Positions 11,427 to 35,636 of a DNA stretch of 64,000 nucleotides are shown one piece after another (positions within the stretch are counted from its first letter, which is position 1; each line of letters opens with the position of its first letter). The position numbers and the translations under genes are program-made. Under the pieces are notes generated by a model. The model worked only from the letters and a program-made list of their open reading frames with translations, was not told the DNA's origin and ran no database searches. Source of the stretch: Gammaproteobacteria bacterium (GTDB lineage: Bacteria > Pseudomonadota > Gammaproteobacteria > Xanthomonadales > Wenzhouxiangellaceae); the NCBI GenBank assembly GCA_021772975.1, contig JAJFKY010000016.1:248001-312000 (forward strand), read 5' to 3'.

Positions 11427-12517
11427 GCAGACTGTTGCTGAGTTTAGTGTTGCTGGCGTTGCTGAGCGGATGTGGTAGCGATTCAGAACCGCGCAAGGCA
11501 ACTGATCAACTGGTTGATGCGGCGCCGGTAGTGCGGGCTGATCTGGTGCAGCCGATGCTGTTCTCGGGTGTCAGTCAGGCTGCTGAACGGGCCGATCTGG
11601 CATTTCAATCCAGTGGGGTATTGCGGCTGCGCCCGGTGCGCATTGGTGATGAGGTTGCCCCTGGCGATCTGCTCGCGGCGCTGGAAAACCCTGATCTGGA
11701 GCCCGCCAAACAGGCCGCTGAAGCGACCCTGGCACGCTTGCAGACCGAGCAGACACAGGCGCAGCGCAATGTGCAAAGGCTGCAGGCTTTATTTACCGAA
11801 GGGGCGGTAGGTGAACAGACCCTGGAAGAGGAACAGACCCGGCTGGAATCACTCAATGATCAGATTCGGCAGGCGCGGGCACAACTGCTCAGTGATTCTG
11901 GCCGGGTCGATGACTCACGCCTGTCGGCGCCATTTGGTGGTCTGATCGGTCAGGTTAATTTTGAAGTCGGGGAATATGTTCGGGCCGGTGAAACAGTGCT
12001 GATTCTGGGCGGCCTGGATGTTATGGAAGTCATGCTCGAATTGCCGACCGCGGTGTGGAAGGACCTGCGCGAAAATCAACCGGTGCCGGTGGACATTCTG
12101 GGACTGGGTACGGCAACCATTGGTGAGGTTTATGATATCGGCGCTTTGGCTGATCCGCTGACCGGTCTGTTTCCGGTGGTGGTGCGTTATCCGGGCGTCG
12201 CCCAGGCGCGCGCCGGACAACGTGTCAGCGTGCAGTTTGAACAACGCCGGCCGGATGTTATGCAGGTGCCGTTGAGCGCCATAGTTGATCCGATCGGTGG
12301 CGCGCCGCGCGTATACCGGGTGCAGCAGGGCACCGCTGTCAGTACGGTGGTTGAGGTAATCGGTTTTGCCGGTACCCAGGTGGCCATCCAGGTGTCGGCC
12401 GGCAGCCAGCTGGAAGCCGGCGATCAGGTGATTACCGCCGGCCATATGTCACTGGTCAACGGCCAGCGAATAAATCTTCGGGCACCGTCAGACGGCGCAC
12501 TCGCGCAACAGCACTGA
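11423..12517 (+). CDS. RND efflux periplasmic adaptor lipoprotein (HlyD/AcrA type)
   Basis: A 364-residue membrane-fusion protein linking an RND pump to an outer-membrane channel. The signal peptide ends in a lipobox (LLALLSGCGSDS), so it should be a lipoprotein anchored in the inner membrane. A biotinyl-lipoyl-like half (VLRLRPVRIGDEVAPGDLLAALENPDL) precedes a helical hairpin rich in Gln and Glu (about 90-155), then the second lipoyl half (LSAPFGGLIGQVNFEVGEYV) and beta-barrel domains. It overlaps the tetR-like gene by four bases and stops one base before the pump gene. No TolC-like gene is present, so the outer-membrane partner must be encoded elsewhere. Confidence 0.9.
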   Translation: MSRLLLSLVLLALLSGCGSDSEPRKATDQLVDAAPVVRADLVQPMLFSGVSQAAERADLAFQSSGVLRLRPVRIGDEVAPGDLLAALENPDLEPAKQAAEATLARLQTEQTQAQRNVQRLQALFTEGAVGEQTLEEEQTRLESLNDQIRQARAQLLSDSGRVDDSRLSAPFGGLIGQVNFEVGEYVRAGETVLILGGLDVMEVMLELPTAVWKDLRENQPVPVDILGLGTATIGEVYDIGALADPLTGLFPVVVRYPGVAQARAGQRVSVQFEQRRPDVMQVPLSAIVDPIGGAPRVYRVQQGTAVSTVVEVIGFAGTQVAIQVSAGSQLEAGDQVITAGHMSLVNGQRINLRAPSDGALAQQH

Positions 12518-12518
12518 T

Positions 12519-15500
12519 ATGAACAAGCTGACCAGGTTACTGGGACAAAAAAGGCTGGTAATGGCCACCGTGCTGTTACTGGCGATTGTCGGTATCAGCG
12601 CCTGGTTTAATATGAACCGGCAGGAAGACCCGGCCTTCCCGTATCGCTATGGCTTCGTCACCGTGGCTTATCCGGGCGCCGACGTGGATCAGGTTGAACG
12701 CCTGATTACCCAGCCGCTGGAAGAAGAACTGGCGCAGGTCGAATACGTGGATGAGCTGCGCAGCACCATCCGGGCCGGTTTTGCGCTGGTGGTGGTGGTG
12801 ATGCAGCAAAGCGTATATGACACCGACACCGCCTGGGATCGTATCCGGATAGCGGCGCAACGGGCGGAGGCCAGGTTTCCGCAGGGCGCGCAGCCGGTGC
12901 AGATTGATGATCGGATCATTGATGCCGCCACGGTGGTGGTGGCCATTACCGGCTCGAATGATCAGATCGCCATGCAGGATGCCGCCGAACGCCTGCGTGA
13001 CCGGATGTTAACGGTCAATGGGGTGGCAAGGGTGCGGCTGTTCGGACATACCGATGAGCAGGTCACTATCGCCTATGATGATGTTCAGGCGGAAACCCTG
13101 GGCCTGAGTCCAGCAGCGCTGGCGGCGCAATTGCAGGGCCGCAATCAGGTGGTGCCGGGGGGCTATCTGAATACCGCCGGCCGGCAACTGCAAATCCGTC
13201 CGCAAACCGATTTTGCCGACCTGGCGGCTCTGCAGGCCACACCGATTGCCCTGGGCAATGGCGTCACCCTGCCGCTGTCCAGTATTGCCGAGGTGCGCCT
13301 GACGCCCCGCGAACCGGCGCGGGAGACCGCCTGGCTGGGTAATCAGCGCGCGGTGGTGGTGGGTATCATCGGTCAGAACGATTCGCTGAATGCTGAATTT
13401 TTTGGCCGGCAGATACGTGCCCAGGTAGAAGAACTGCGGCCGTTGTTTGCACCGCTGGAAATCAGTGAGCTGTTTTTTCAGCCGGACCGGGTGCACGAGC
13501 GCTTAAGCGAGCTGGGCGGTAACCTGCTGGTTGGGGTACTTATCGTAGCGATCATTTTATTTCTGGTCATGGGCCTGCGGATGGGCCTGCTGGTGGCGTT
13601 GATGGTGCCGCTGGTGACCTTGACCTCACTGGCGCTCTACAGCCTGGGTGGTGGCGTGCTGCATCAGATGGCGGTGGCCGGGATGGTGATTGCGCTGGGG
13701 ATGCTGGTGGATAACGCGATCGTGATGGCGGAAAACATTCAGTGGCATATCGATCGGCACATCCCCCGGCCGCAAGCGGCCCGGCGTTCGGTGCGTGAAC
13801 TGGCCGGTCCCCTGGGAGCGGCCACGGGCACCACCGTGGCGGTATTTATTCCGATGGTACTGGCCAGGGGAGATACCGCGGATTTTACCCGCGCGGTGCC
13901 CAGCATGATTATTTTGATGCTGCTGGTCAGCTACGTGTACGCGGTGATGGTCACCCCGGTTATGGCGGGGTGGTTTTTAAGTCCGCCGAAAGCCCGCAAA
14001 ACGATTCCGCAGCGGGCCAATGAGTGGCTGGGCAGACAGGCTCGAAGTGTTGGCCGGCTGGCGGTGGATTATTCGCCGGTGGTATTGCTGGGCGCGGTCG
14101 GGTTTCTGGTGCTGGCGGCGATTCTGAGTGGCGGCGTCAGCCGCAACTTCTTCCCGGATACCGACCGTAACCAGTTTATTGTGGATGTGTATTATCCGGA
14201 AGGCACGCCGATCAGCGAAACCACCGCGTTTGCCCTGCAACTGGCCAATGAAATGCGCACGCAGCCCGGTGTCCAGCAGACTTATACCTTCACCGGCAAT
14301 AGTGGACCCAAGTTCTATTACAACCTGAATGAGACGCCGCGCTCGCCCTATCTGGGCCGGGTTATCGTACAGGCCGACGATGTCAGTGATATCGGACCGC
14401 TATCGGACTGGGTGCGCGCTCAGAATGACAGCCGCTGGCCGCAGGTGCAGCTGGTGCCACGCCGGCTGGAGCAGGGGCCGCCGACACCAGCGCCGGTGGA
14501 AGTGCGGATGCTGGCGGACGACTGGAGTACGCTGCGTGAAGGCATTGAGCAGGTCACGCGAATCCTGCGGGATATCGACGGCACGGTGGACGTCCGTCAT
14601 GACATGGGGATCGGGGTACCCACGCTGCGTATCAACGTTGACGACCGCCGGGCCCAACCGGCCGGTGTCACGCGGGAACTGATTGGTCAAAGTCTGGCCC
14701 GCCAGAGCCAGGGTTTGCGGATTGGTACCTTCCGGGCCGAACGTGACCCGATGCCGATTGTATTGCGCTCAGCCCGCGGCGAGTACTTTCCCGCCGACCA
14801 GATAGCCGCGGTGCAAAGCTGGAGCACGGATGGTGCAACCCGGTTGCCGATACTGGGTTTGAGCGAGCCCGAATTGATCTGGCAGCCGGCGGTCAGGCAT
14901 CATTTTAATCTGCAACCCTCCAGCACCGTATTCAGTGAATTGCTGGATGGGGTGACCTATGCTGGAGTGTATGCGGAGCTGGAGCGCCGTCTGCAACAGA
15001 CACCCCTGCCGCCGGGCGTGAAAATTTCCGCCGGGGGCGCGCAGCGTTCCTCCGGACAGGCCAACAGTGCGTTGTTCAGTACCTTGCCGCTGGGTCTTAT
15101 TCTACTGCTGTTTTTTCTGTTGCTGCAGTTCAACTCCTTCCGCCGGGTCGGCCTGGTTCTGGTTACCGTACCGCTGGCACTGGCCGGGGTGGTGCCAGGT
15201 CTGTTGCTGACCGGGTATCCGTTTGGCTTTATGGCTTTGCTGGGGGTGATCGCCTTGATCGGGATCGTGGTCAATAACGCCATCGTGCTGCTGGATGTGG
15301 TGGATCAACATCTGCAGGATGGCGAAAACCTGCGGCTTGCGATCATTGAAGCGGTGGCCCGCCGCACCCGTCCGGTGTTACTGACCACGGCCACCACCGT
15401 GGCCGGTCTGCTGCCACTGACGGCAACTCAGAGCACATTGTGGCCACCTATGGCGTGGACGATTATTTCCGGTTTGCTGGTTTCAACCTTGTTCACTTTG

Positions 15501-22978: not shown

Positions 22979-23026
22979 GTCAGCCGACAATGCACTAAGC
23001 GGATAAACAGATGACTATGTAACAAG

Positions 23027-23053
23027 CAAAAAAAACCCGGGCAGCGCCCGGGT
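23027..23053 (-). terminator. Rho-independent terminator of the beta-helix protein gene
   Basis: ACCCGGGC (23035-23042) and GCCCGGGT (23046-23053) form an 8-bp stem with a 3-base loop. On the minus strand the hairpin is followed by a run of T. It lies 23 bases past the stop codon at 23076. Confidence 0.92.
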
Positions 23054-23075
23054 CAGATGCCTTGCTATCTTATCG

Positions 23076-26000
23076 TTATTTCGTTTGGCGCTTGCGCAGA
23101 CCGATCAATGCGGCCAGCGGCAACAGCAGTGCCATCAGCCATTTACCGAAGGCGGTCATGGCGGGAACTTCGATCGGTTCTTCAGGTACAACCTGGCCAT
23201 CGACCACATCAACCGTTGATTGCTGTTCGCCATCTTCAGTACCGTTGGTCACGCCGATGATATCCACAATAATGGTTTCATCCGGATCATTGATACCATC
23301 ATCGACCGCGTTAATGGTCGCTATGCCCGAGGTCTGACCAGCGGGGATCAGCACCATGTCTGTATCCACGGTGTAATCATCGGGCATCACCGCGGTGCCG
23401 GAGAAACCGAGCTGCACGGTGACATCCTGGCCGGACGGCGTATTCAGGCTGACGATGATTTGCGAAGTCTGACCTTCGTTTACCATCAACGCCGAGACAT
23501 CCAGGCTGACCAGTGGTGGTTCATCATCATCAGTGATGGTGGTGCTGACCTGCTGTACGCCGTTTTCGACGCCGTTGGTCACGGTATCGATATCCACCAG
23601 CACCTGCTCGTCGGGCTCATCCAATGCATCATCCACAGCCGTCAGCATGATGTCCGCCGAGGTCATACCCATCGGGATGACAATGCTGGCTGGTGCAGTG
23701 AAGTCGCTCATATCGGCGGCACCGGAAAATGCCAGATTGACGGTGATGTTCTGCGTGCTCGGATTGGACAGGGTGGCGGTAATGGTCGCCATGCCGCCGT
23801 TTTCAGCGATCGGATCACCTGCCAGTGACAGGGTGACGCTGGGCACGCCTTTGTCGTCTTCGATCACACCGTTAAGCTGAGGAAGACCACCCAGGGTGCT
23901 TGACGGTACCTGTAGCAGGTCCACGCTGAAGGGCTCGTCACCTTCACTGATATTGTCATCAATGCCGGTGATGGTGGCCGGAGCCTGTGACATCAGACTG
24001 CCGTCATTCGGAATAAACAGCGTATCGCTGTCGACGCTGAAGTCGGTATCCAGAATGGCTACGCCCGAGAAGCTCAAATCAACAAACAACGAGATGCCGG
24101 CTGATTCCGTCAACAGAGCATCAATGGTACCCATGCCACCGGGTTCGGGAATGGGGCTGCCGGTCAAACTGACGGCCAGATTGGGATTGGGCGTGGCTTC
24201 AAATGCACCGATATCGGTTTGTGTGCCGATGGTGCGCGGGAAGCCGCTCAGGCGTTGATCATCGACCGCGGCGGCGAAGTTCAGACCGCTATTGATCGCC
24301 GGACTGCCGGCCATCAGCGCGTGGGTCTGGGTTGGTCCACCATTACTGGCCAGTGCGCCCAACAAGGGATCGGCATTCAAAATATTAAAGCCGTCGTCAC
24401 TAATCGGAGCACCGGCGTCATCATCTATCAGGCTGAACAGCACCCCAAAGTTGCCACCTTCGCCAGCCAGATTGGCATTGCCCGAACCGGAGGTATTGCC
24501 GGCGATGATGGAACTGCCGATGGTGACGTTATAGGCATTGCCGCCACGCAGGTAAATTTCGATATCAGCATAGATGCCACCCCCATAGCGGCTGGCGGTG
24601 TTGTTGGCAATGGTGCTGCTGGCAATGAAAATGCTGTCCGCGCCTGGCGAAAAGATTCCGCCACCGTCGCCTTCACTGGCCATATTGCCTGAGATGGTGG
24701 AGTTGCGAATGAGTATGGAGCCATCTTCGGAATAGGCATAAATGCCACCAGCATTGCCGGTGCTGGCGGTATTGCCGGAGATGGTGGTGTTATCGATGGT
24801 CAGCGCATAATTGCCTTCAGGGTCGACGAAGCGCATACCACCGGTATCATCATCGGCGCTGTTGCCGGCAATCACGGAGTCGGAAATGCTGACACTGCTG
24901 TAGAAGCCGTAGTCGCCGCCCCGCACAGAGCCATCAACACTGCGTCTGTTCTGATAAGTCGATAACAGCAGGCCACCCACATTACCATCACTGGTGTTGT
25001 TGGTGATCCGGGTATTGTGGATTCGGATCGGGGCGTTGACATCCGCCAGCGTCATGGCGATACCGCCGCCGATGCCTTCGCCTACCGAGTTGGCGGTAAA
25101 GCTGGAGTCAATAATATTGATGGCCTCATAACGATTACCACTCACCGCCAGGCCACCACCATAGTTTTCCGCGCTGTTGCCGGAAAAAGTGCTGTTAACA
25201 ATATTGAGTGAAGCGTACTGCGCATCCAGCAGCACGCCACCGCCATCACCATACATGGAGGTGTTGTTGCTGATGGTGCTGTCAACAATGGACAACGCGG
25301 TACCATCCTGGTCGGCGTAAAATGCAATGCCGCCGCCATCCTGATAAGCGCTGTTGTTATCGATCAGACTGTTGTTAACGATATGCAGCCGTGAACCCTC
25401 TTCGCCGATGAATATACCGCCACCCCGGCCTTCTTCATTCATTGCCGTGTTGTAGCTGACCGTAGTGTTATCCAGCGTCAGGCTGTCGCTATAGCCTTGC
25501 AATTCGTCAACATGAATGCCGCCACCATCTCCACCGGTGGTATTGCCAGTGATCAGGGAGTTGCTGATGCCGGCGGAGTTGGTCAGGTTCTCGATCAGAA
25601 TGCCGCCGCCGCCATAGCTGCCACTGTTATTGGAAATGGTGCCATTGTCGATGGCCAGAATGGCGCCGTCATCAATATGCACCCCGCCGCCGTAGTTGGC
25701 GGAATTATTATCGATGGTGCTATTGCGTACCACCAGCGCACCGGTGGTGACGTTGTTGCCAAAATAACCGGAATAGTCGTCCACAGAAATACCACCGCCA
25801 TTGCCACCCTCATAGCCGTTAGCGGTGTTGTAGCTGATGGTGGAGTCGATAACCCGCAGCACGCCATCATACTGGGCGATGCCGCCACCCGCATAAGCCT
25901 GGCTGTTGGTGATCAGGCTGTCGCGAACGGTCAGTTCGGCATTATTGGAATAAATGGCGCCGCCACTCTCACTGGTATAACCGTCGGTTATGGTCAAACC

Positions 26001-28517
26001 GACGATGTCAACCGACAGCAGATTGTAATAGGGATCGCCCAGATTGCCGCGCTGTGGCTTTCCGCCGCTATAGATTCTGAAAATACGCGATGCACCGCCT
26101 TCGCCACGGACCGGCTCCGGAGCAACAAAGCCACCACTGACGGTAATCACACTGGGGACAGGTGCATTGATAACGATATCATCGTTAATATCAATATCAC
26201 CGGAGGTCAGCGTAATGGTGCCGGACAGGCCTGCCTGAAATTCAACGACATCCAGTCCATAGGTGTTGTTTGAGTCATAAACGGCCTGGCGCAGACTGCC
26301 GGGACCGCTATCGTATAGATTGGTGACGGTTCGGGTCGCGGCCGGGAAGCTCAAAGCTGCGTCGGTGGCTGATTCTACCGCACCCATATCAGTCTGCAGG
26401 CCGACCATGCGGGCAAAGCCGGTGCCGCGCTGATCATTAGCGCTGGCTGCCGCGTTCAGGCCGGCATCAATCGCCGGGCTGCCGGTCATCAGGGCATGCG
26501 TCATGGTAGGGCCGCCATTGTCGGCCAGCGGACCCAGCATCGGGTCGGCGTAAAAAATATTGTTGTTGTTCTGATCCAGGCTGATACCGTCCGGGTCTTC
26601 AATCAGACTGAATTCCACATACAGATCAGTGCCACCCAGATCCGGGTTACTTTCGTAGGTGGTGTTATTGGCAATAATGCTGCCGCGGATCTGCAGGCCG
26701 CTGTCAGCGTTGTAGACACCGCCACCGCCACCGTAGGCATAGTTGCCGGTAATGGTGCTGTTATCGATCAGTGCTTCCCCATCTTCATGGGTCAGGAATA
26801 GGCCGCCGCCATATTCACCGGCACTGTTATCGGAGAAGGTGCTGTTTTTGATCAGCGGTGCACCGTCATCGGAATAAAGCCACAGACCACCGCCGCTTGC
26901 TTCCGCCGTATTGCCTGAGAAGGTAACATTGTCGATATTCACGCTGTAGCCGTCATCGTCGTACAGCCACATGCCACCACCTTCGCTGGCCTGATTGTCG
27001 GCGATGGTGGTATTGCGGATGACCAGGCTGGTGTACAGGCCGTCATCAAAGTAAAAATGCAGACCGCCGCCGTCATCACCCGCATAGTTGCCGATAAAGT
27101 CGCTGTCTTCAATCAAAATGGCCTGATGAATATCATCCACTTCGAGCATCAGACCGCCGCCTTCATTACTGGCGGTGTTATTGGAAACGACGCTGTTCTG
27201 AATGGTGATAAACCCATAGTGGGTGCCGGCACCACCGTCATAGTAAACCGCTATACCGCCTCCGCCACCGCTCTCAGCTTCATTGCCACTGACCGAACTG
27301 TTGCGAATCAGCAGGCTAGGTTCATCGGCATAGAAATGGATACCGCCGCCATAGCCTTCAGTCGCTGAATTGTTGTCGATATTGCTGTCTTCAATACGCA
27401 AAAGATCAGCCCGGCTATCGCTATTGAAGCGCACGCCGCCGCCTTCCTGGGCAGTATTGCCACTGATAACACTATTGTTGAGAATGCTTAAATTGCCATC
27501 CTCGGCAGCAATGCCACCACCACCACCATATTCGACATTGTTGTTGCTTATGGTGGTGTTATTGATTTCTACAACAGCACCGGCAGCGGTTCCCGAAACG
27601 CTGACCCCGCCAGCATAATCGGCGGTATTATTGCTGATGGTACTGTTGGCGATCAGCGCATTAACATAAACATCATCGAGTTCGATTGCTCCCCCGTTTC
27701 CGCCTGAGCTGTTGTCCATGAACTCGGAAGAGTCAATCACAACACTGTTGATATTTTGCGCTGAGACCGCGCCACCATCGTTACTGCTGTAATTGTAGGT
27801 AAAGCCGCTGCCGCTGATGCTAAGTCCGCCGCCATTGACAGCTACCGCACCGCCGTCTGAGTTGTTGGCACGGTTATCGTCGAAGGTGGAATCACTGATA
27901 TCGACAAATACGCCATTGCTGTACAGCGCTCCGCCGCTGCCGTTGCCGCTGGTGCTGTTATTGATCGTGACGTTGCGCAGGCTCAACCGGGTATTTTGCT
28001 GGTTGGCGCGAATGGCGCCACCATTGTCGTAATAGTAGCCGTTGCTCAGGGTAAGATCGCTGATCTCGGTAAACCCGGAGACCTCGCTGTTCTGTACATC
28101 AAAAATTCGTGAGCTTGAATTGGCATCGATGGTAATGACCGTTTCACCGGGACCCTGAATGGCCACGCTGTCATCAATATCGATTTCACCAGTGGTCAGC
28201 ATAATGGTGCCATTCAGACCGTTATTGAAACGTATGCCATCGGGACCGGGGTTGGCATTCGCATCCATCACGGCCTGGCGCAGACTGCCGGGGCCGGCGT
28301 CGTCCAGGTTATACACCTCAAACACATCGGCCTGGGCAATACCCGCAACCGTGACCAGCGAGCTGACCAGCATCGCGGTGGGCAGATTGCCCGCGCGTCT
28401 GACCGGTTGGCAATAACTCTCGCCCAACGAATGGGTAATGGCCTGCGACAGTGAATTACGAGGAATAGCGATAGGATTGATGGAGTTTTCACCAATCTGG
28501 ATATGCAATCTGCTCAA
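23076..28517 (-). CDS. 1813-residue beta-helix surface protein with Calx-beta repeats and IPTL-CTERM-like anchor
   Basis: A very large exported protein. After a long N-terminal leader (signal near residues 45-63), two similar halves (about 65-715 and 730-1410) each begin with [10 protein letters not shown] or [10 protein letters not shown], continue with dozens of right-handed beta-helix rungs such as NSTISGNTA...GGGI, and end with a choice-of-anchor Q-like closing stretch ([40 protein letters not shown]). About 1415-1765 hold Calx-beta-like domains ([28 protein letters not shown] and similar). The last 32 residues are an IPTL-CTERM-type tail: VPAMTAFG, a hydrophobic helix and RKRQTK. A surface or secreted adhesin-like role is likely. 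It has its own terminator. Confidence 0.88.
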
Positions 28518-28689
28518 AACCTGACTCCCGGATAGTCTTATTTATTATTTATGAAGGTGCGCGTTGACGCTAAATTCACGCAATTCTAACCCATTTTTAA
28601 TCGCAAATGGTAACCAATACGCATAAAATTATGAATTATTCCAACAGCATAGCTCTATCACATAAGCAAGATAATGAATAGTAAGATAT

Positions 28690-28781
28690 GTAGGAGCGCA
28701 CCCGGGCGCGACCATCTCGATCTAAATAAGGCGCTGGTATTGATTGGTGGTGAGGTTGATCGCGCCCGGGTGCGCTCCTAC
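28690..28781. repeat. REPIN-like inverted doublet of REP family 1, second copy
   Basis: Arms at 28690-28713 (GTAGGAGCGCACCCGGGC...) and 28758-28781 (reverse complement form). The spacer GGCGCTGGTATTGATTGGTGG is the reverse complement, with small differences, of the spacer in the doublet at 320-417. It ends four bases from the stop of the TIGR02466-like gene and may end or stabilise that transcript. Confidence 0.75.
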
Positions 28782-28784
28782 AGG

Positions 28785-29513
28785 CTAGCTTGCTGATCGT
28801 TCGGGTTTTTGCTGTTTGGGGTTGCGCCAGAACAGGTTGAAAGACACCGAAATGCGTGGTTCCGCGCGGTAGTGTGGCGCGACCATATGGGTAGCGTAAG
28901 CGGGGAAAATCAACAGCTTACCGTTGACTGGCCGATAACTGATGGTGGTAGGGCGGTCAAATCGCCGACCCATCGGCAGCGGGTTGAAAAACATCAGGTC
29001 ACCCTCGCGAATCGCACCCGCGGGCTGTTCCGGCTGGTCAATTTCCGCCTCCAGGTAAAACACGCCGGACCAGTCCGCCGGCAGATGCTGATGCGGCGCG
29101 TTCCAGGCGCCGGTATCACTGATGTTGCCCCAGCAGGCGGCCAGTTCGGGATAGCCCGGGCGCGTTTCGCCGTGGAAATGTTTGGCCGCGATGCGGGCAA
29201 TGTTCTGAATTTTGCTACACATCCAATGGATATGCGGGTTGTCCTGCATAAACAGATCTTCGTTGGAATGCCAGCCGCGCACATTGCTGCGATGCACGCC
29301 TTCATCCTGTTCCCGCAGCCTGGTCAGATAATCAATCAAGGCCTGCTGATGCTGCTCAAATTCGCGCACCATAATTGAATACACCGGCACGCCAAAGTGA
29401 CCGCTCTGTTCCAGCTGGCCCTGAGTTTGGCTGTTGCCGTCCTCATTGCCATCAGTCTGGGTTTGGGTCTGCTCTGAGGTGCGATTTTGACCGTTATCTC
29501 TGGGGGTGTTCAT
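28785..29513 (-). CDS. TIGR02466-like putative 2-oxoglutarate/Fe(II) oxygenase
   Basis: A 242-residue protein resembling the TIGR02466 family of putative 2OG-Fe(II) oxygenases. The C-terminal half carries NISDTGAWNAPHQHLPADWSG, a double-stranded beta-helix style stretch with candidate iron ligands, then KLLIFPAYATHMVAPHY and a closing RISVSFNLFW with the Arg expected to bind 2-oxoglutarate. I start it at 29513 because GAGG precedes that ATG and this gives a 7-base gap to the fusion gene. The longer open frame back to 29609 would overlap that gene. The N-terminal 40 residues are Gln/Thr-rich and probably disordered. It is downstream of, and likely cotranscribed with, the hydroxylase-sulfotransferase fusion. 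Confidence 0.78.
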   Translation of the reverse strand: MNTPRDNGQNRTSEQTQTQTDGNEDGNSQTQGQLEQSGHFGVPVYSIMVREFEQHQQALIDYLTRLREQDEGVHRSNVRGWHSNEDLFMQDNPHIHWMCSKIQNIARIAAKHFHGETRPGYPELAACWGNISDTGAWNAPHQHLPADWSGVFYLEAEIDQPEQPAGAIREGDLMFFNPLPMGRRFDRPTTISYRPVNGKLLIFPAYATHMVAPHYRAEPRISVSFNLFWRNPKQQKPERSAS

Positions 29514-29520
29514 AGCTGCC

Positions 29521-32500
29521 TCATTCAGCGCCAGGACTGGACGGATTGGCCGGCGTGATGGTGCGCTGGGCCTGCGGAACCTCACGCAGTGCGGCATCCG
29601 GCAAGACATACGAACTGGACAGCAGTTTGTTCATCGGTTCCAGAATTTCCGGAAAATGAATCCCGGCCAGCAACTGCACGGAAAAGATCTCCTGCACCGC
29701 GCCTTCAAACTTAAGATAGCCCACAGTCTGACCGGTTTTGATATTCATGACCCATACGCCGCAGGTGCGCTCTTTCAAGCGCTTGGTAATCGGAATACCA
29801 CTGAAAATCGCGCTTTCTCGCACCTGGGAAAGGCCGATAAAGGCGTAATCGCCGGCAAAGTCGATACCGCGGGTAAAACCGGGCACCAGGCCTACCGTCT
29901 CCAGTTTGCCAGTCTCGATATCCACTGTGGCCAGGCTGCCGTTACCCGATTCCAGGACCCACAGTTTGCCCTGATACCAGCGTGGTGAATGCGGCATGGA
30001 CAGCCCCTGGCAGATAATTTCATTGCTGTCGATATCGATCAATACCCCCCCATCGGCCTTGCTGGCGCGCCAGCCCTGCGGAGTATCGGCGGTGCCCAGG
30101 GCAGTAACATATCTGGGTTTATCCTCTACCAGACACAGACCATTCAGGTGACAGCGGTCTTCCGGGGCCAGTGCGGAGATAAACTTCGGGCGCCAGCGCG
30201 GCACGAAGCTGTATTCAGGGTCCAGGCTGCACAGGCATGAAAAGCGGGTATTGATAAACCACAGGTCCTTGCCCGCCCAGCACATTTCGTGAATATCTAT
30301 ATCGCCGGTGACGTGGGTGTTACGGGGCAGGTAGCAGGCATCGTATTTGCCGATCGGTTCCAGCTTTTTGGCTACATTGGGCATGTTACGGAAAAACTGA
30401 ATCTGATGACTGGTGCCCACCGCCATACGGCCACGATCAGCGGCCATTCCCATCGGTTTATCAAACATCTGAAAATGGGTATTGAGTTTGCCATTATCCG
30501 GACGCGCAACGATGAGCCGGCCGGCCTGATAGGTGGTGACCAGCATCGAGAAATTGGCTTTTTCCAGCATATTGGGAATATTGGACGTGTGCACGCTGGC
30601 CAATGGCGCATTAGGATCAGGTTGCATGGGTCCGGGCTGTGCCCGCCGTGTTTGTGCAGTCGGGGCCGGCTGAAAGGTCCGATCCAGGGCTCTGGCATAC
30701 TCAGTGATGCGTTGCTGGGTTGCCTCGGTGGCAGGCAATACCCGTTTGAGCTCGGGTTCGTTTTTCTTCCACTTGTCCGGGTCGGGTTTGGTCAGGGTAT
30801 GCCGGGATAACGCCAGGCCCTGTTCCAGCGACTGATCCCAGGCCACACCGGCAAACTGGCACAGGCGTTTGACCTGCTGTTCGGGCGCGGCAATCAACTG
30901 CTCATAACTGACTGCACAGATTCGCTCGCTGGGAATCTGTTGCAACGCATCCAGCATCGCATTGTGTGCGCTGAGCCACTGTTGCGTGGCGATTTCCTCG
31001 ACCGCTTTTTTGTTCAACCGCCGCCATTCGGAAATCAACAGCAACGACCAGGCCAGCTCATGGTCCCAGCCGGGTAAATCGGGATAAGTGACAAATTTTC
31101 CGGAACGCCAAGCATCCATGATACTGCTGATATTCTCACGCGGCTGGCGATACAGATATATATATTGTGCGTCCGGGAAAACCTTGTTGAAGAACGGAAT
31201 GCGCAAGGCATTCTTGGGGGTTTTTTCCAACATCCGCACCGGTCGATTGTGCGCTTTGGCGGCATTGCCGTTGCGGTCATGCAGGCGCGCCAGAAAACTG
31301 GCGCGGATGGTCTGGATGGTTTCCGGATCGGCATCTTCGGCATGCAGACGATTGGATTCGAAATCGCGGTTTTCCGGGTTCAGCTTGTCAATACGCTCAA
31401 TCAGATAATGGCTTTCACCGCCAATCGTATAGAGTTCTGGTGACCTGGCCAGGGTTTCAAATAACAGGGTGCTACCGGAACGGGGAGCAGCAACCACAAT
31501 CAATGGGCGATCCAGTTTATTGACTCGGCGCTGCTGTGCGGCTGGCCCGCGGGCTTGGGCGCCAGCCGGCGTATTCAGCAAATCAGGGTTCAGTGAAGGC
31601 TCGATCATGCCCTGGCGAATCATGGAGATCGGGTCCATGCCGTTGGGCAGCATGACTTTTTCCTGATGCGGCTGGAGCGCCTGAAGCAGCTCCTGGCGGG
31701 TCTGATCGTACATTTTGAACCCCGCCGCCTGCATGCCAAAACGCGACCACAAAGTCCGCCACTGCTGACGGAAGCGGACGGTGGCCTGCTCAATGGCTTC
31801 CACATGCCTCGCCGGGGCAGGATCAGCATGCCGCATGTCTGCCAGGATGGGGGCCAGCACACTGTCCTGCTCCCAGGGTGACATCACCAAAGGCGCGTTG
31901 ACGGTTTCCGTGGCCAGGTTCAGTTGCTGATCAGGTTGATAGTCAATTTTCTGCGGTTCAATCCGTGCCGGGATATTGATATGCGGCTGTGCAGCCTGTT
32001 TGACCAGATCCCAAAATCGCGCCGAGCCGACCGTATCAGCCACCAGGTGGATACGGGTAAATTCACTCGGGTTCTCGACCTTATGTTGTTTCCAGGTATC
32101 AAAAATCCAACTCTCGCCTTCACCCATGTGCACCGCTTGATCGCCGCAATGAAAACGCACATCCGGATTGGTCATAATCGGCACGTGTACGCGCACTCGC
32201 TGATGCCAGTAATAATTGGCGTCCATATGTCGCTGTACATTGGCGCGATCGGCAATCCGCATTAGCCGGGTGCGTCCGAATATGGTTGCAAACGACGCCA
32301 GCACCTGTTGTAGATAGGGGCACTTTTTCAGATGCGGCGTGGGCAGCATCGGGCCTTTCAGTGCATCATCACGCGGGTTGCCGTTGGCGGCGATCAGCAG
32401 CAGCGCATCGTTGCCTTTAAACCCCTGTGGATGCGGCATCCAGTCGTCCGGACCAAATTGGGCGACTTCTGCTTGCAGGCGTTTGGCATCAAAGCGAAGC

Positions 32501-32532
32501 GGGAGTTGGTAAAACTCGGTGTCCAGTCTCAT
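29521..32532 (-). CDS. Asp/Asn beta-hydroxylase, sulfotransferase and TIGR03032-type three-domain fusion
   Basis: A 1003-residue protein without signal peptide or membrane helix. Residues 1-170 match aspartyl/asparaginyl beta-hydroxylases: HMD (His102, Asp104), RVHVPIMTNP, GEGESWIFDTWKQH (His150) and an Arg at 160. Residues about 340-610 are a PAPS-dependent sulfotransferase with the 5'-phosphosulfate loop APRSGSTLLFETLARS (349-364) and a 3'-phosphate site around YLYRQPRENISSIMDAW. Residues about 650-985 match TIGR03032, an uncharacterised family that looks propeller-like (MLVTTYQAGRLIVAR, HEMCWAGKDLWFINTRFSCL, GLSMPHSPRWYQGKLWVLESG). The order implies hydroxylation and sulfation of one substrate recognised by the third domain, which is inference. 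It lies 44 bases after a lipoprotein gene. Confidence 0.88.
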   Translation of the reverse strand: MRLDTEFYQLPLRFDAKRLQAEVAQFGPDDWMPHPQGFKGNDALLLIAANGNPRDDALKGPMLPTPHLKKCPYLQQVLASFATIFGRTRLMRIADRANVQRHMDANYYWHQRVRVHVPIMTNPDVRFHCGDQAVHMGEGESWIFDTWKQHKVENPSEFTRIHLVADTVGSARFWDLVKQAAQPHINIPARIEPQKIDYQPDQQLNLATETVNAPLVMSPWEQDSVLAPILADMRHADPAPARHVEAIEQATVRFRQQWRTLWSRFGMQAAGFKMYDQTRQELLQALQPHQEKVMLPNGMDPISMIRQGMIEPSLNPDLLNTPAGAQARGPAAQQRRVNKLDRPLIVVAAPRSGSTLLFETLARSPELYTIGGESHYLIERIDKLNPENRDFESNRLHAEDADPETIQTIRASFLARLHDRNGNAAKAHNRPVRMLEKTPKNALRIPFFNKVFPDAQYIYLYRQPRENISSIMDAWRSGKFVTYPDLPGWDHELAWSLLLISEWRRLNKKAVEEIATQQWLSAHNAMLDALQQIPSERICAVSYEQLIAAPEQQVKRLCQFAGVAWDQSLEQGLALSRHTLTKPDPDKWKKNEPELKRVLPATEATQQRITEYARALDRTFQPAPTAQTRRAQPGPMQPDPNAPLASVHTSNIPNMLEKANFSMLVTTYQAGRLIVARPDNGKLNTHFQMFDKPMGMAADRGRMAVGTSHQIQFFRNMPNVAKKLEPIGKYDACYLPRNTHVTGDIDIHEMCWAGKDLWFINTRFSCLCSLDPEYSFVPRWRPKFISALAPEDRCHLNGLCLVEDKPRYVTALGTADTPQGWRASKADGGVLIDIDSNEIICQGLSMPHSPRWYQGKLWVLESGNGSLATVDIETGKLETVGLVPGFTRGIDFAGDYAFIGLSQVRESAIFSGIPITKRLKERTCGVWVMNIKTGQTVGYLKFEGAVQEIFSVQLLAGIHFPEILEPMNKLLSSSYVLPDAALREVPQAQRTITPANPSSPGAE

Positions 32533-32577: not shown

Positions 32578-33360
32578 TTAATTGTCATTATTCTGGTTGG
32601 CCTGTCTTTGCTGGCGGCGCTGTTGACGCAGTTGCTGACGTTGTTCCGGCGTGATTTCAGCTTTGACGATGGCTTTATCGAGTTCAAAATCCATCCATTC
32701 CAGGCTGGCAATTTCACCACCCTGTGCGGCCAGTTGCCGTAGTTGCTCCGCTGTCAGCGCCTCCAGCATATCCACAGTGGCGGCATGGCGTGCCTTTAGC
32801 CAGCGTTGCTCCAGTTCAGCGATATCATTCAGATTGTTTTCAAGTTGAGTAACGCTGCCGGCCTGTAATGCCAGCCGATTGGCCTCGTGCAGCGTTGACA
32901 GCTGCTGGGCCAGTTGCTTTTGTTCATCCAGCAATTGCTGCAGGCGACCGTCCAGGCTGGCGATTTGATCAGCTTCCAGATTCAGTGATTTATTGCCACT
33001 TTTTTTATTCCACCAGGATTTATTGGTCAGGCGTTGGATACGCTTTTGTTCACGCTGCGCGGCTTTTTCCGCTGGGGTTTTTGCTGGTTTGTCGGTCGGC
33101 TCAGCATCACGGCGAGCCTGACGGGCAGCTTCACGCTCGGCCTGGGCTGCCTGACGCCTGGCCTGGTTGGCTGCTTTGACTGCCGGATCGACCTCCGGCC
33201 GTGGCGGCCGTACAGGTTGTTGAGTTACCGTTGATTCAGCCACGGCAGCTTGATTTTCAGGTTCTGCCTCAGGTTGAGTATCTGTCGGTGAATCGCAGGC
33301 GGCTAATTGCAGCAACAGCAATAAAGCCGCGATGCGGATGCAGGCGTTCTGATTCGACAT
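32578..33360 (-). CDS. Lipoprotein with Ala/Arg-rich and coiled-coil regions
   Basis: A 260-residue exported protein of unknown family. The signal peptide ends in a lipobox (LLLLLQLAACDSP), giving Cys22 as the lipidated residue. Residues about 25-60 are Pro/Glu/Gln-rich, about 60-110 alternate Ala with Arg, Lys and Glu, and the rest is a long amphipathic helix region (LDGRLQQLLDEQKQLAQQLSTLHEANRLALQ) with an LTAEQLRQL and an ITPEQRQQLRQQ motif. The latter recall the LTxxQ motifs of Spy/CpxP-type periplasmic proteins, but overall similarity is weak. It lies between the PAPS synthase gene and the sulfotransferase fusion on the same strand and could be a structural or substrate component. Confidence 0.65.
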   Translation of the reverse strand: MSNQNACIRIAALLLLLQLAACDSPTDTQPEAEPENQAAVAESTVTQQPVRPPRPEVDPAVKAANQARRQAAQAEREAARQARRDAEPTDKPAKTPAEKAAQREQKRIQRLTNKSWWNKKSGNKSLNLEADQIASLDGRLQQLLDEQKQLAQQLSTLHEANRLALQAGSVTQLENNLNDIAELEQRWLKARHAATVDMLEALTAEQLRQLAAQGGEIASLEWMDFELDKAIVKAEITPEQRQQLRQQRRQQRQANQNNDN

Positions 33361-33696: not shown

Positions 33697-35430
33697 TTAC
33701 CGCTGTATTGCCAATAACCCCATGCACTCCAGCTCAATCAAAATCTTCTGTACCGATTCTTCCGGACTGAGTGATTGGGTATCCAGTTCCAGTTCAGGGT
33801 TTTCGGGTGCCTCGTACGGGTCGGAGATGCCGGTGAACTCCTTGATTTCACCGCGTCGCGCTTTGGCATACAGGCCCTTGCGGTCACGCTGTTCACATAC
33901 TTCCAGGGAAGTGGATACGTGAATTTCCAGAAAGCCGCCCAATGATTCGATCATGTCGCGAACCTGCTGGCGGGTGTGGCTGTAGGGTGCGATCGGGGCG
34001 CAGATCGCGACGCCACCGTTTTTGGTGATTTCCGAGGCCACGTAGCCAATCCGGAGAACATTAATATCCCGGTGCTCACGTGAAAAACCCAGTTCGCTGG
34101 ATAGATGCGTGCGCACGATATCACCGTCCAGCAGCGTCACCGGACGGTTACCGATTTCACGCAGCTTGATCATCAGCGCGTTGGCTATGGTGGATTTGCC
34201 GGCGCCGGACAGGCCGGTGAAAAAGATGGTAAAACCCTGACGGGCGCGTGGCGGATAGCTTTTCTGCAGTTCCTCGACCACTTCCGGAAAAGTAAACCAG
34301 TCGGGAATATCCAGTCCTTCATATAGACGGCGGCGCAGTTCGGTGCCGGACAGATTCAGCACTTTTTCACCTTCGCGGACTTCATCAGCGGCCACATATT
34401 CAGCCCGGTCCTGCACAAACACCATCATTTTAAAGGGCACCATTTCAATGCCGATCTCCTGCTGGTGCTCGCGCAACAGGGCCTGGGCGGCGAACGGATC
34501 ATAAAACGGCTGGCCCTGGCTGTCATTGCCGGGCCCGGCGTGGTCACGGCCGACAATCATGTGCGTACAGCCATAATTGCGGCGGATAATGGCGTGCCAG
34601 AGTGCTTCGCGTGGACCGCCCATGCGCATCGCCAATGGCAGCAGGCTTAGCTGGGTGGTGTCATCGGGGTAGCGTTGCAGGACTTTTTCATAGCAGCGCA
34701 CGCGGGTCAGATAGTCCACATCCCCAGGCTTGGTCATGCCCACCACCGGATGTATCAGCAGATTGGCTTCCGCCTGTTTGGCGGCGCTGAACGTCAGTTC
34801 CTGATGTGCGCGGTGCATCGGGTTGCGGGTCTGGAACGCGACAATCCGGCGCCAGCCCAGTTGTTTGAACAGTGCCTGCAGGCTGGCGGGGGTGTGACGC
34901 AGATGACGGCAATCATAATGATGCGGCAACTGCAGACCCCGCAGTTTGCCACCCAGGTACACCGGGCCGGTCTCGTTGAGCAGGTAATTAACGGCAGGGT
35001 GTTTGTGGTCATTGGTACCGAATACCTGTTCCGCCTCACGCTGCAGATCCGGTTGCCATTTTGATTCGATGCTCAACACCGCCAGTGCCAGACCTTCGCT
35101 GTCACGCAGGGTCAGCTGATCGCCGACGCCAAGCTCTGCAGCGAATTGTTCGCTCACGTCCAGCACCACCGGTATCGGCCACAGTGTGCCATCGGCCAGC
35201 CGCATATCCGCGCAGACACTGGCATAGTCCTGCTCGGTCATAAACCCCCGCAAGGGTGAAAACCCGCCGTTCAGCAGCAGTTCCAGATCACATAGATGCC
35301 GCTCACTCAGGGTCAGTGAGGGCAGGCTTCCGGCCAGCTCTTTCAGGTTCTGGTGTTCAGTGGGTGGCGCTAGTAAGTCCACCAGATGGCCGCCATGGGC
35401 GCTTAGCCGGTTATTGGGTTTGCTAGTCAC
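33697..35430 (-). CDS. sat/cysC: Bifunctional ATP sulfurylase / APS kinase (PAPS synthesis)
   Basis: A 577-residue enzyme that makes 3'-phosphoadenosine 5'-phosphosulfate from ATP and sulfate. Residues about 1-385 are an ATP sulfurylase: the QTRNPMHRAHQEL motif (a QxRNPxHxxH type) and GRDHAGPGN are intact. Residues about 400-577 are an APS kinase with the P-loop GLSGAGKST and DGDIVRTHLSSELGFS. I start it at the GTG (35428-35430), which has AGGACA upstream and gives VTSKPNNRLSAHGG. The longer ATG frame adds 59 unlikely residues that run into the neighbouring promoter region. PAPS can feed sulfate reduction or sulfotransferases. The sulfotransferase fusion downstream on the same strand suggests the latter here. 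Confidence 0.92.
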   Translation of the reverse strand: MTSKPNNRLSAHGGHLVDLLAPPTEHQNLKELAGSLPSLTLSERHLCDLELLLNGGFSPLRGFMTEQDYASVCADMRLADGTLWPIPVVLDVSEQFAAELGVGDQLTLRDSEGLALAVLSIESKWQPDLQREAEQVFGTNDHKHPAVNYLLNETGPVYLGGKLRGLQLPHHYDCRHLRHTPASLQALFKQLGWRRIVAFQTRNPMHRAHQELTFSAAKQAEANLLIHPVVGMTKPGDVDYLTRVRCYEKVLQRYPDDTTQLSLLPLAMRMGGPREALWHAIIRRNYGCTHMIVGRDHAGPGNDSQGQPFYDPFAAQALLREHQQEIGIEMVPFKMMVFVQDRAEYVAADEVREGEKVLNLSGTELRRRLYEGLDIPDWFTFPEVVEELQKSYPPRARQGFTIFFTGLSGAGKSTIANALMIKLREIGNRPVTLLDGDIVRTHLSSELGFSREHRDINVLRIGYVASEITKNGGVAICAPIAPYSHTRQQVRDMIESLGGFLEIHVSTSLEVCEQRDRKGLYAKARRGEIKEFTGISDPYEAPENPELELDTQSLSPEESVQKILIELECMGLLAIQR

Positions 35431-35527
35431 AGTATTGTCCTGTTGGCTGTTGTTGGTTGCCTGCTGCAGCAAGTATGCACAGGAGGTGGCGTAGTATAGC
35501 CAGAATTCAAGCCGGCTTATCCGAATG

Positions 35528-35558
35528 TTCACCCAATATTGCTCATCTTGGTTATAAT
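35528..35558 (+). promoter_or_regulatory. Candidate promoter of the FKBP gene
   Basis: A perfect TATAAT at 35553-35558 has a poor -35 (TTCACC, 35528-35533) at a 19-base distance. This is within the region between the divergent sat/cysC and FKBP genes. The -10 is convincing, but the -35 is only a guess. Confidence 0.4.
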
Positions 35559-35636
35559 GAAAGGTTATTGAGATATGTCTGGAACCCTGCGCGGATCCAC
35601 CAGTCACAGCCTGATAATTACAACTCGGAGTTCTTT

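Follow-up and report, generated by a model that had tools for sequence, protein, structure and literature searches.

The window, that is, the whole 64,000-nucleotide stretch of DNA analyzed here (G000:C8:248001-312000, from a genome of 3.74 Mb in 24 contigs), carries on its reverse strand a gene for a giant secreted beta-helix protein and, upstream of it in the same orientation, a row of enzyme genes, one of which encodes a fusion of a hydroxylase, a sulfotransferase, and a DUF4915 domain. The giant protein is encoded by a single open frame (23076-28517, 1813 amino acids) with a TTG start. This start is backed by the 1911-amino-acid homologue in G001, a genome of the same genus, because the GTG start of that homologue aligns with it and the same CCGGGAG stands a few bases before both. 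A long leader (residues 1 to 62, 28332-28517), similar to that of the G001 homologue, reads as an extended signal peptide and probably functions as one. It is followed by two beta-helix units: unit A (residues 63 to 715, 653 amino acids, 26373-28331) and unit B (residues 726 to 1440, 715 amino acids, 24198-26342), which is 42.0% identical to unit A. GPGSLRQA openers lie near residues 75 and 738, and each unit ends in a choice-of-anchor Q closing segment (residues 644 to 718, 26364-26588, and residues 1370 to 1442, 24192-24410). The model for these segments, NF041518 (choice_anch_Q), matches in two stretches with 146.2 bits, each domain scoring above 80 bits at a cut-off of 25 bits, so the layout of opener, beta-helix, and closing segment that a first-pass annotation had read in both halves of the protein holds. 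CSLREA was rejected, with no such model among the NCBIfam matches of the giant protein at E 1.

Beta_helix (PF13229) matches the protein in eight stretches with 110.7 bits, and Chlam_PMP repeats (PF02415) also match over the cut-off; the protein does not class as an autotransporter of the chlamydial Pmp type, no barrel family being among the six Pfam families at E 1. Unit A is modeled as a right-handed beta-helix (mean predicted local distance difference test score [pLDDT], 92.0; predicted template-modeling score [pTM], 0.92) and falls among the right-handed parallel beta-helices, with Z scores of 23 to 27 to solved structures of this fold. Rhombotarget A is the closest (Z, 27.3), and a phage protein, an alginate epimerase/lyase, and a phage tailspike follow within Z 1. 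Weak matches to LptA and VexL in a search of solved structures with the giant protein (E, 0.02 to 0.09) were treated as chance.

Behind unit B lies a Calx-beta part of three copies (residues 1444 to 1552, 1558 to 1661, and 1667 to 1771; 23205-24188). PF03160 matches in two stretches (30.7 bits; gathering score, 27), and a profile built here from the giant protein and its G001 homologue recovers three copies, which agrees with the Calx-beta-like domains proposed earlier. The C-terminal tail (residues 1784 to 1813, 23079-23168) consists of VPAM, a membrane stretch, and a basic end. We call it IPTL-like because its shape alone agrees: the IPTL-CTERM model TIGR04174 matches neither the whole protein (E 1) nor the isolated tail (E 10), and the tail is absent from the 14 IPTL-CTERM matches of its own genome. 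The IPTL-type tail of the first-pass annotation is thus retained in shape and not in family. The genome encodes an exosortase XrtH (TIGR04177, 197.7 bits; cut-off, 86), and six of its proteins score above the cut-off for IPTL. Choice-of-anchor Q proteins at five loci of relatives (L140, L144, L145, L146, and L128) end in FQDRFE or FSDGFE-like sequences and have no IPTL-like tail.

The enzyme genes begin with a bifunctional ATP sulfurylase/adenosine 5′-phosphosulfate (APS) kinase, i.e., a 3′-phosphoadenosine 5′-phosphosulfate (PAPS) synthase (33697-35607; NF004040, 950 bits), followed by a probable lipoprotein of 260 amino acids (32578-33360) that has no Pfam or NCBIfam match and a 274-amino-acid relative at the same place in G001. 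Next comes the triple fusion (29521-32532), in which profiles identify an AspH-type hydroxylase (residues 1 to 240), a sulfotransferase (residues ~333 to 599), and DUF4915/TIGR03032 (residues ~642 to 970). The last gene before the giant gene encodes a TIGR02466-type putative 2-oxoglutarate (2OG)-Fe(II) oxygenase (28785-29609), whose true start is probably downstream of 29609, near 29520. The order is the same in G001, where additional genes separate the lipoprotein from the PAPS synthase. The genome of the window has two AspH genes, and the fused one adjoins the giant gene; three of its four choice_anch_Q genes (five domains) lie away from the enzyme. This operon next to the giant gene is a more telling feature than the doubling of the beta-helix unit.

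The pairing recurs well beyond this genus. We scanned the named genomes for AspH domains and analyzed the best 80 of 137 loci, ranked by likeness to the AspH domain of the window; the query had five rows, of which L174 and L175 were chosen among beta-helix hits. The triple fusion is present at 16 of the 80 loci. At 14 of them, a beta-helix gene with the opener or closer lies no more than 2 kb away (at 13, no more than 1.5 kb), compared to 4 of the other 64 loci within 1.5 kb (13/3 versus 4/60; Fisher P = 3.6e-9). One of the 16 (L176) is G001 itself, and without it, 13 of 15 triple fusions have a beta-helix neighbor; among the 64 others, two (L204 and L206) showed nothing but a sulfotransferase with the profiles used. 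The titles of the triple-fusion records, many of them metagenome bins with unchecked labels, name Gammaproteobacteria, Wenzhouxiangella relatives, Alcanivorax, Acidovorax, Planctomycetota, and Acidobacteria, and further ones name Thermoanaerobaculum, Pimelobacter, Nocardioides, Frankiales, and Acidimicrobiia. One metagenome bin (L179) is titled Klebsiella pneumoniae, a label that is probably wrong. Most fusion/beta-helix pairs are divergent, with 50 to 210 bp between the genes, and the remainder point in the same direction or converge. Apart from these two genes the neighborhoods have little in common: the 65 flanking proteins are varied, the commonest Pfam family (2OG-FeII_Oxy_5) has three members, and no recurrent third partner was found among them beyond TIGR02466 (3 of 65).

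At the level of whole genomes, the choice_anch_Q gene beside the enzyme is the only one of its kind in 5 of the 20 genomes with the gene pair (G433, G435, G436, G437, and G440). In a class sample of 369 genomes, choice_anch_Q occurs in 10 of the 17 with TIGR03032 over the cut-off, compared to 69 of the 352 without it (P = 6e-4). Adjacency probabilities were computed for uniform, independent placement, with the number of domains standing in roughly for that of genes and without regard to kinship. A second approach started from DUF4915 hits other than weak ones and short fragments. Of the 49 annotated neighborhoods (47, the window, and its G001 counterpart L048), 13 contain a gene with the opener or closer according to our own profiles, and one more (L163) contains one by NF041518. 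Twelve of these annotated neighborhoods have an AspH domain; seven of them have a beta-helix neighbor, and two of the other five are on contigs shorter than 7 kb. Sulfate activation again adjoins the DUF4915/choice-of-anchor Q pair at L171:2950-5851: there, choice-of-anchor Q genes flank on both sides a DUF4915-TPR protein whose gene overlaps a frame resembling APS kinase.

The beta-helices next to the enzyme also have a composition of their own. With identical units from overlapping loci removed, the median tyrosine content of the unit bodies is 4.66% in 26 units beside a sulfotransferase-bearing enzyme, 3.61% in 10 units beside DUF4915 without sulfotransferase, 0.39% in 10 units whose genomes have DUF4915 only elsewhere, and 1.19% in 12 units from genomes without TIGR03032 (maximum, 1.92). 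The difference between linked units and those from genomes without TIGR03032 (P = 4e-7) holds for bodies of 200 to 350 amino acids (n = 12 versus 5; means, 3.8 and 1.2; P = 0.003). Two units exceed 2% in the group with DUF4915 elsewhere (L005 and L023), and their genomes carry an AspH-DUF4915 protein. Within genomes, the linked unit is higher in tyrosine in 10 of 11 pairs if genes of the same cluster are counted as linked (P = 0.002) and in 11 of 14 if those 2.5 to 7 kb off are counted as unlinked (P = 0.005).

The catalytic residues of the fusion are conserved. The hydroxylase domain belongs to the AspH type of 2OG hydroxylases (PF05118, 56.8 bits; cut-off, 22.6; HxD...H), and its iron ligands H102, D104, and H150 are invariant in 18 aligned triple fusions. 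The second domain is a PAPS-dependent sulfotransferase by profile (Sulfotransfer_3, 101.7 bits; cut-off, 27) with P350, R351, S352, G353, R462, and S470 invariant in the 18 triple fusions; PRSG, R462, and S470 presumably form the PAPS-binding motifs. Its nearest solved relatives by sequence are the CurM sulfotransferase (7e-17) and protein-tyrosine sulfotransferases (4e-13). From this relatedness and the tyrosine enrichment, the domain is a candidate tyrosylprotein sulfotransferase. The model of the whole fusion has a pLDDT of 84.1 and a pTM of 0.42, and because of the latter, the domain arrangement cannot be read from it; its fold matches include six-bladed propellers, which we assign, from alignment length and secondary structure, to DUF4915.

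The enzyme also has a second form. Nine proteins of relatives (L139 to L146 and L148) join an AspH-like domain to DUF4915 without the sulfotransferase, and in all nine the iron ligands are lost, whereas every one of the 87 AspH domains found singly or joined to a sulfotransferase retains the ligands and R/H. The joint loss of ligands and sulfotransferase suggests that hydroxylation and sulfation are coupled. Furthermore, five of the nine (L140, L143, L144, L145, and L146) still adjoin a beta-helix gene, and from this persistence we suspect that the beta-helix partner is bound by the AspH-like part and DUF4915; the AspH-like domain of the nine is a candidate pseudoenzyme acting as a binding domain.

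Taken together, we consider it likely, with a probability of roughly 0.6, that the giant protein is an exported, probably membrane-anchored surface protein and the partner, most likely the substrate, of the fusion enzyme encoded upstream. Since the linked beta-helices are rich in tyrosine, tyrosine is the most likely sulfate acceptor in the units. In our model, the DUF4915 propeller would hold the beta-helix chain while the AspH-type domain hydroxylates side chains of it and the sulfotransferase domain transfers sulfate from PAPS, which would be supplied by the neighboring PAPS synthase. These steps may take place in the cytoplasm, ahead of export by the long leader; outside, the Calx-beta domains could act as a stalk, and the IPTL-like tail would serve as the anchor. 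Beyond the single locus, we suggest tentatively, and with less than even confidence, a dedicated and so far undescribed modification system, in which one hydroxylase/tyrosine-type sulfotransferase/propeller chain serves one class of secreted beta-helices in several phyla and sets rows of sulfated, perhaps also hydroxylated, side chains before export and anchoring. A literature search, with subscription journals mostly outside its scope, returned nothing on TIGR03032, DUF4915, or choice-of-anchor Q proteins and nothing on a beta-hydroxylase with a sulfotransferase and a beta-helix or on this neighborhood; for asparaginyl beta-hydroxylase and sulfotransferase, no title on the pairing was found.

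Several observations weigh against this interpretation. One triple fusion (L186) has no beta-helix gene in flanks of 2.2 kb and 7.7 kb and is a real exception, and a second (L180) also lacks one, with an upstream flank of only 0.3 kb; both genomes hold choice_anch_Q genes elsewhere. The AspH proteins of L142, L148, and L152 have no beta-helix neighbor, nor have 27 of the 31 AspH-sulfotransferase genes without DUF4915, and therefore the AspH-sulfotransferase pair serves other ends too. Tyrosine richness also occurs beside DUF4915 proteins that lack the sulfotransferase, and it may thus answer to DUF4915 and not to sulfation. Acidic residues near tyrosine are mildly enriched and downstream only, too weak a signal for the classic acidic motif of tyrosine sulfation, which was discarded. 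Finally, the G439 pair goes the opposite way, and an unlinked gene of G427 is rich in tyrosine (5.5%). A separate observation concerns L159:9574-19998, where a stand-alone DUF4915 gene adjoins a Calx-beta protein of more than 3000 amino acids (21 Calx-beta stretches and FG-GAP repeats); DUF4915 may therefore serve other repeat proteins too.

In a different explanation, the giant protein is an ordinary beta-helix adhesin or polysaccharide binder, the operon acts on capsule, lipid, or a small molecule, and the linkage reflects shared regulation or an island of surface genes. The polysaccharide lyases, epimerases, and phage tailspikes among the closest folds of the model would fit, as would the location of most AspH-sulfotransferase genes elsewhere and the three further choice_anch_Q genes of the window genome away from the enzyme. 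However, shared regulation or a surface island would hardly account for a pairing that is kept by 14 of 16 triple fusions in distant groups amid otherwise varied neighbors, for the five genomes whose sole choice_anch_Q gene is the paired one, or for the distinct composition of the neighboring beta-helices, and we consider this explanation unlikely. Less probable still is a modification of aspartate or asparagine, with beta-hydroxylation of Asx residues in the coils and sulfate placed on the new hydroxyl. The fusion matches the Asp_Arg_Hydrox family, Asp amounts to 6.20% in linked units compared to 3.51% in genomes without TIGR03032, and the loss of ligands together with the sulfotransferase in nine proteins would suit such coupled steps; yet Asn is lower in linked units (8.12% versus 10.98%), Asp shows no consistent difference within genomes (9 of 14 pairs; P = 0.50), and the hydroxylase domain also resembles proline hydroxylases.

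If sulfation of the neighboring beta-helix by the enzyme is real, having two beta-helix units, as in this genus, would double the length of the decorated surface. Bacteria would then own a system dedicated to the sulfation of large surface proteins, and its enzyme would be a candidate tool for protein sulfation. The pairing with the fusion gives a first functional handle on both DUF4915/TIGR03032 and choice-of-anchor Q proteins, and of all the findings here, the linked system of hydroxylase, sulfotransferase, and propeller most deserves experimental work.

The doubling itself, from an ancestral unit as first proposed, did occur, as a single event of some age, and taken alone it is nothing unusual. 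Units A and B are 42.0% identical over 640 aligned residues (BLASTP E, 3e-79). A search with the whole protein in 61 genomes (its own and 60 relatives) gave only one other near full-length match, in G001 (56% identity over residues 2 to 1668 and 59% over 1544 to 1812), and the next best match had 136 bits; in the named genomes, the giant protein as query gave 13 stretches that matched a pattern, none of which was confirmed. The G001 homologue has the same two units (A′ and B′), four Calx-beta copies compared to three in the window, and a tail that starts with VPTL, so the Calx-beta part and the tail are present in both species. A is 58.1% identical to A′ and B 53.2% to B′, with 44.2% for A′-B′, 45.2% for A-B′, and 43.1% for B-A′. 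A maximum-likelihood tree was built for 61 units from 169 alignment columns covering the opener and closer, after removal of rows with duplicate open frames. The four units fall into a single clade (support, 100), within which B groups with B′ (support, 100) and A with A′ (no support value shown once the tree was re-rooted). These groupings place the doubling before the split of the two species, and one tandem doubling of one ancestral unit before that split is supported. The nearest outgroup consists of single units from elsewhere, of which three from L182 are sister to the clade (support, 99). The single-unit homologues that the first-pass annotation had asked for thus exist, and they prevail: among 84 proteins matching the opener or the closer, 52 have at least one full unit, and 45 of the 52 have one; the other seven, the window and G001 proteins included, have more than one, so multi-unit forms arose elsewhere too. 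That annotation would have counted homologues with the same two units at low mutual identity, and hence an old arrangement, against its reading. The G001 protein is such a homologue, so the doubling is supported but is not a recent event.

The dense internal repeat pattern that had been expected at the DNA level is absent. The gene has one exact direct repeat of at least 16 nucleotides, a 23-nucleotide sequence located in both openers; A and B have 25 12-mers in common, compared to 15.9 (standard deviation, 6.5) in 200 synonymous-codon shuffles, and their codon-aligned DNA is 52.4% identical. Tandem Repeats Finder (score down to 30) reported five short arrays in 23000-28600, the longest of 31 bp and one of them outside the gene, which together with the single exact repeat rules out a repeat array. 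Misassembly, raised earlier as a concern, is unlikely because A and B share almost no DNA repeat. A recent duplication or assembly artefact would suit the common main parts of A and B, but it is most improbable given that the identity of A and B is lower than that of either unit with its counterpart across species, that the tree places the doubling before the species split, that A and B are nearly without shared DNA, and that an independent assembly (G001) has the same architecture.

Around the giant gene, a hairpin of nine pairs with a T run, resembling an intrinsic terminator, lies on the reverse strand directly past the stop codon (23034-23054); it rests on its position and the nine pairs, with 10 terminator-like sites in the region compared to 12.2 expected in shuffles. 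A promoter scan gave 12 sites compared to 10.7 expected and was not used. Upstream of the gene, palindromic elements TGTAGGAGCG, which we take to be REP (repetitive extragenic palindromic)-like, occur as one pair in the window (~28690-28786) and as several copies in G001 (L048, ~12290-12800). In G001, the giant gene is followed immediately by a gene for an IS110-type transposase (L048:18757-19764); none was seen at that place in the window.

On its own, the giant protein is a further case of an already known protein class, the choice-of-anchor Q proteins with Pmp-like repeats, with which it shares the two NF041518 domains and the Beta_helix and Chlam_PMP repeats; it differs in carrying two full units of opener, helix, and closer and three Calx-beta domains in one chain. 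Rhombotarget A (PDB 9cdv/9cdu), which we take to be an Acinetobacter protein processed by rhombosortase, aligns with unit A over 268 residues (Z, 27.3; root mean square deviation, 2.2; 22% identity) and has the highest identity among the tied top matches, the second to sixth being within Z 1. However, it has ~430 residues compared to 653 in unit A, only residues 2 to 319 of the model are matched, and no doubling is seen in it. On the enzyme side, the hydroxylase domain shares PF05118 and HxD...H with AspH-family hydroxylases and differs by its fusion to a sulfotransferase; L-proline cis-4-hydroxylase (4p7w) is the top fold match of the fusion and, along with a beta-hydroxylase, nearest among solved structures by sequence profile (5e-13). 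Protein-tyrosine sulfotransferases 1 and 2 and CurM, nearest to the sulfotransferase domain in sequence and fold, are single-domain in those structures, whereas the sulfotransferase of the window is fused to AspH and DUF4915. A bacterial parallel in arrangement is RaxST/RaxX of Xanthomonas, in which one cluster is reported to provide for tyrosine sulfation of an exported product (PMC6637879). As described there, RaxX is a precursor peptide of 60 residues; here, the neighbor is a giant beta-helix protein and the sulfotransferase is fused to a hydroxylase and a propeller.

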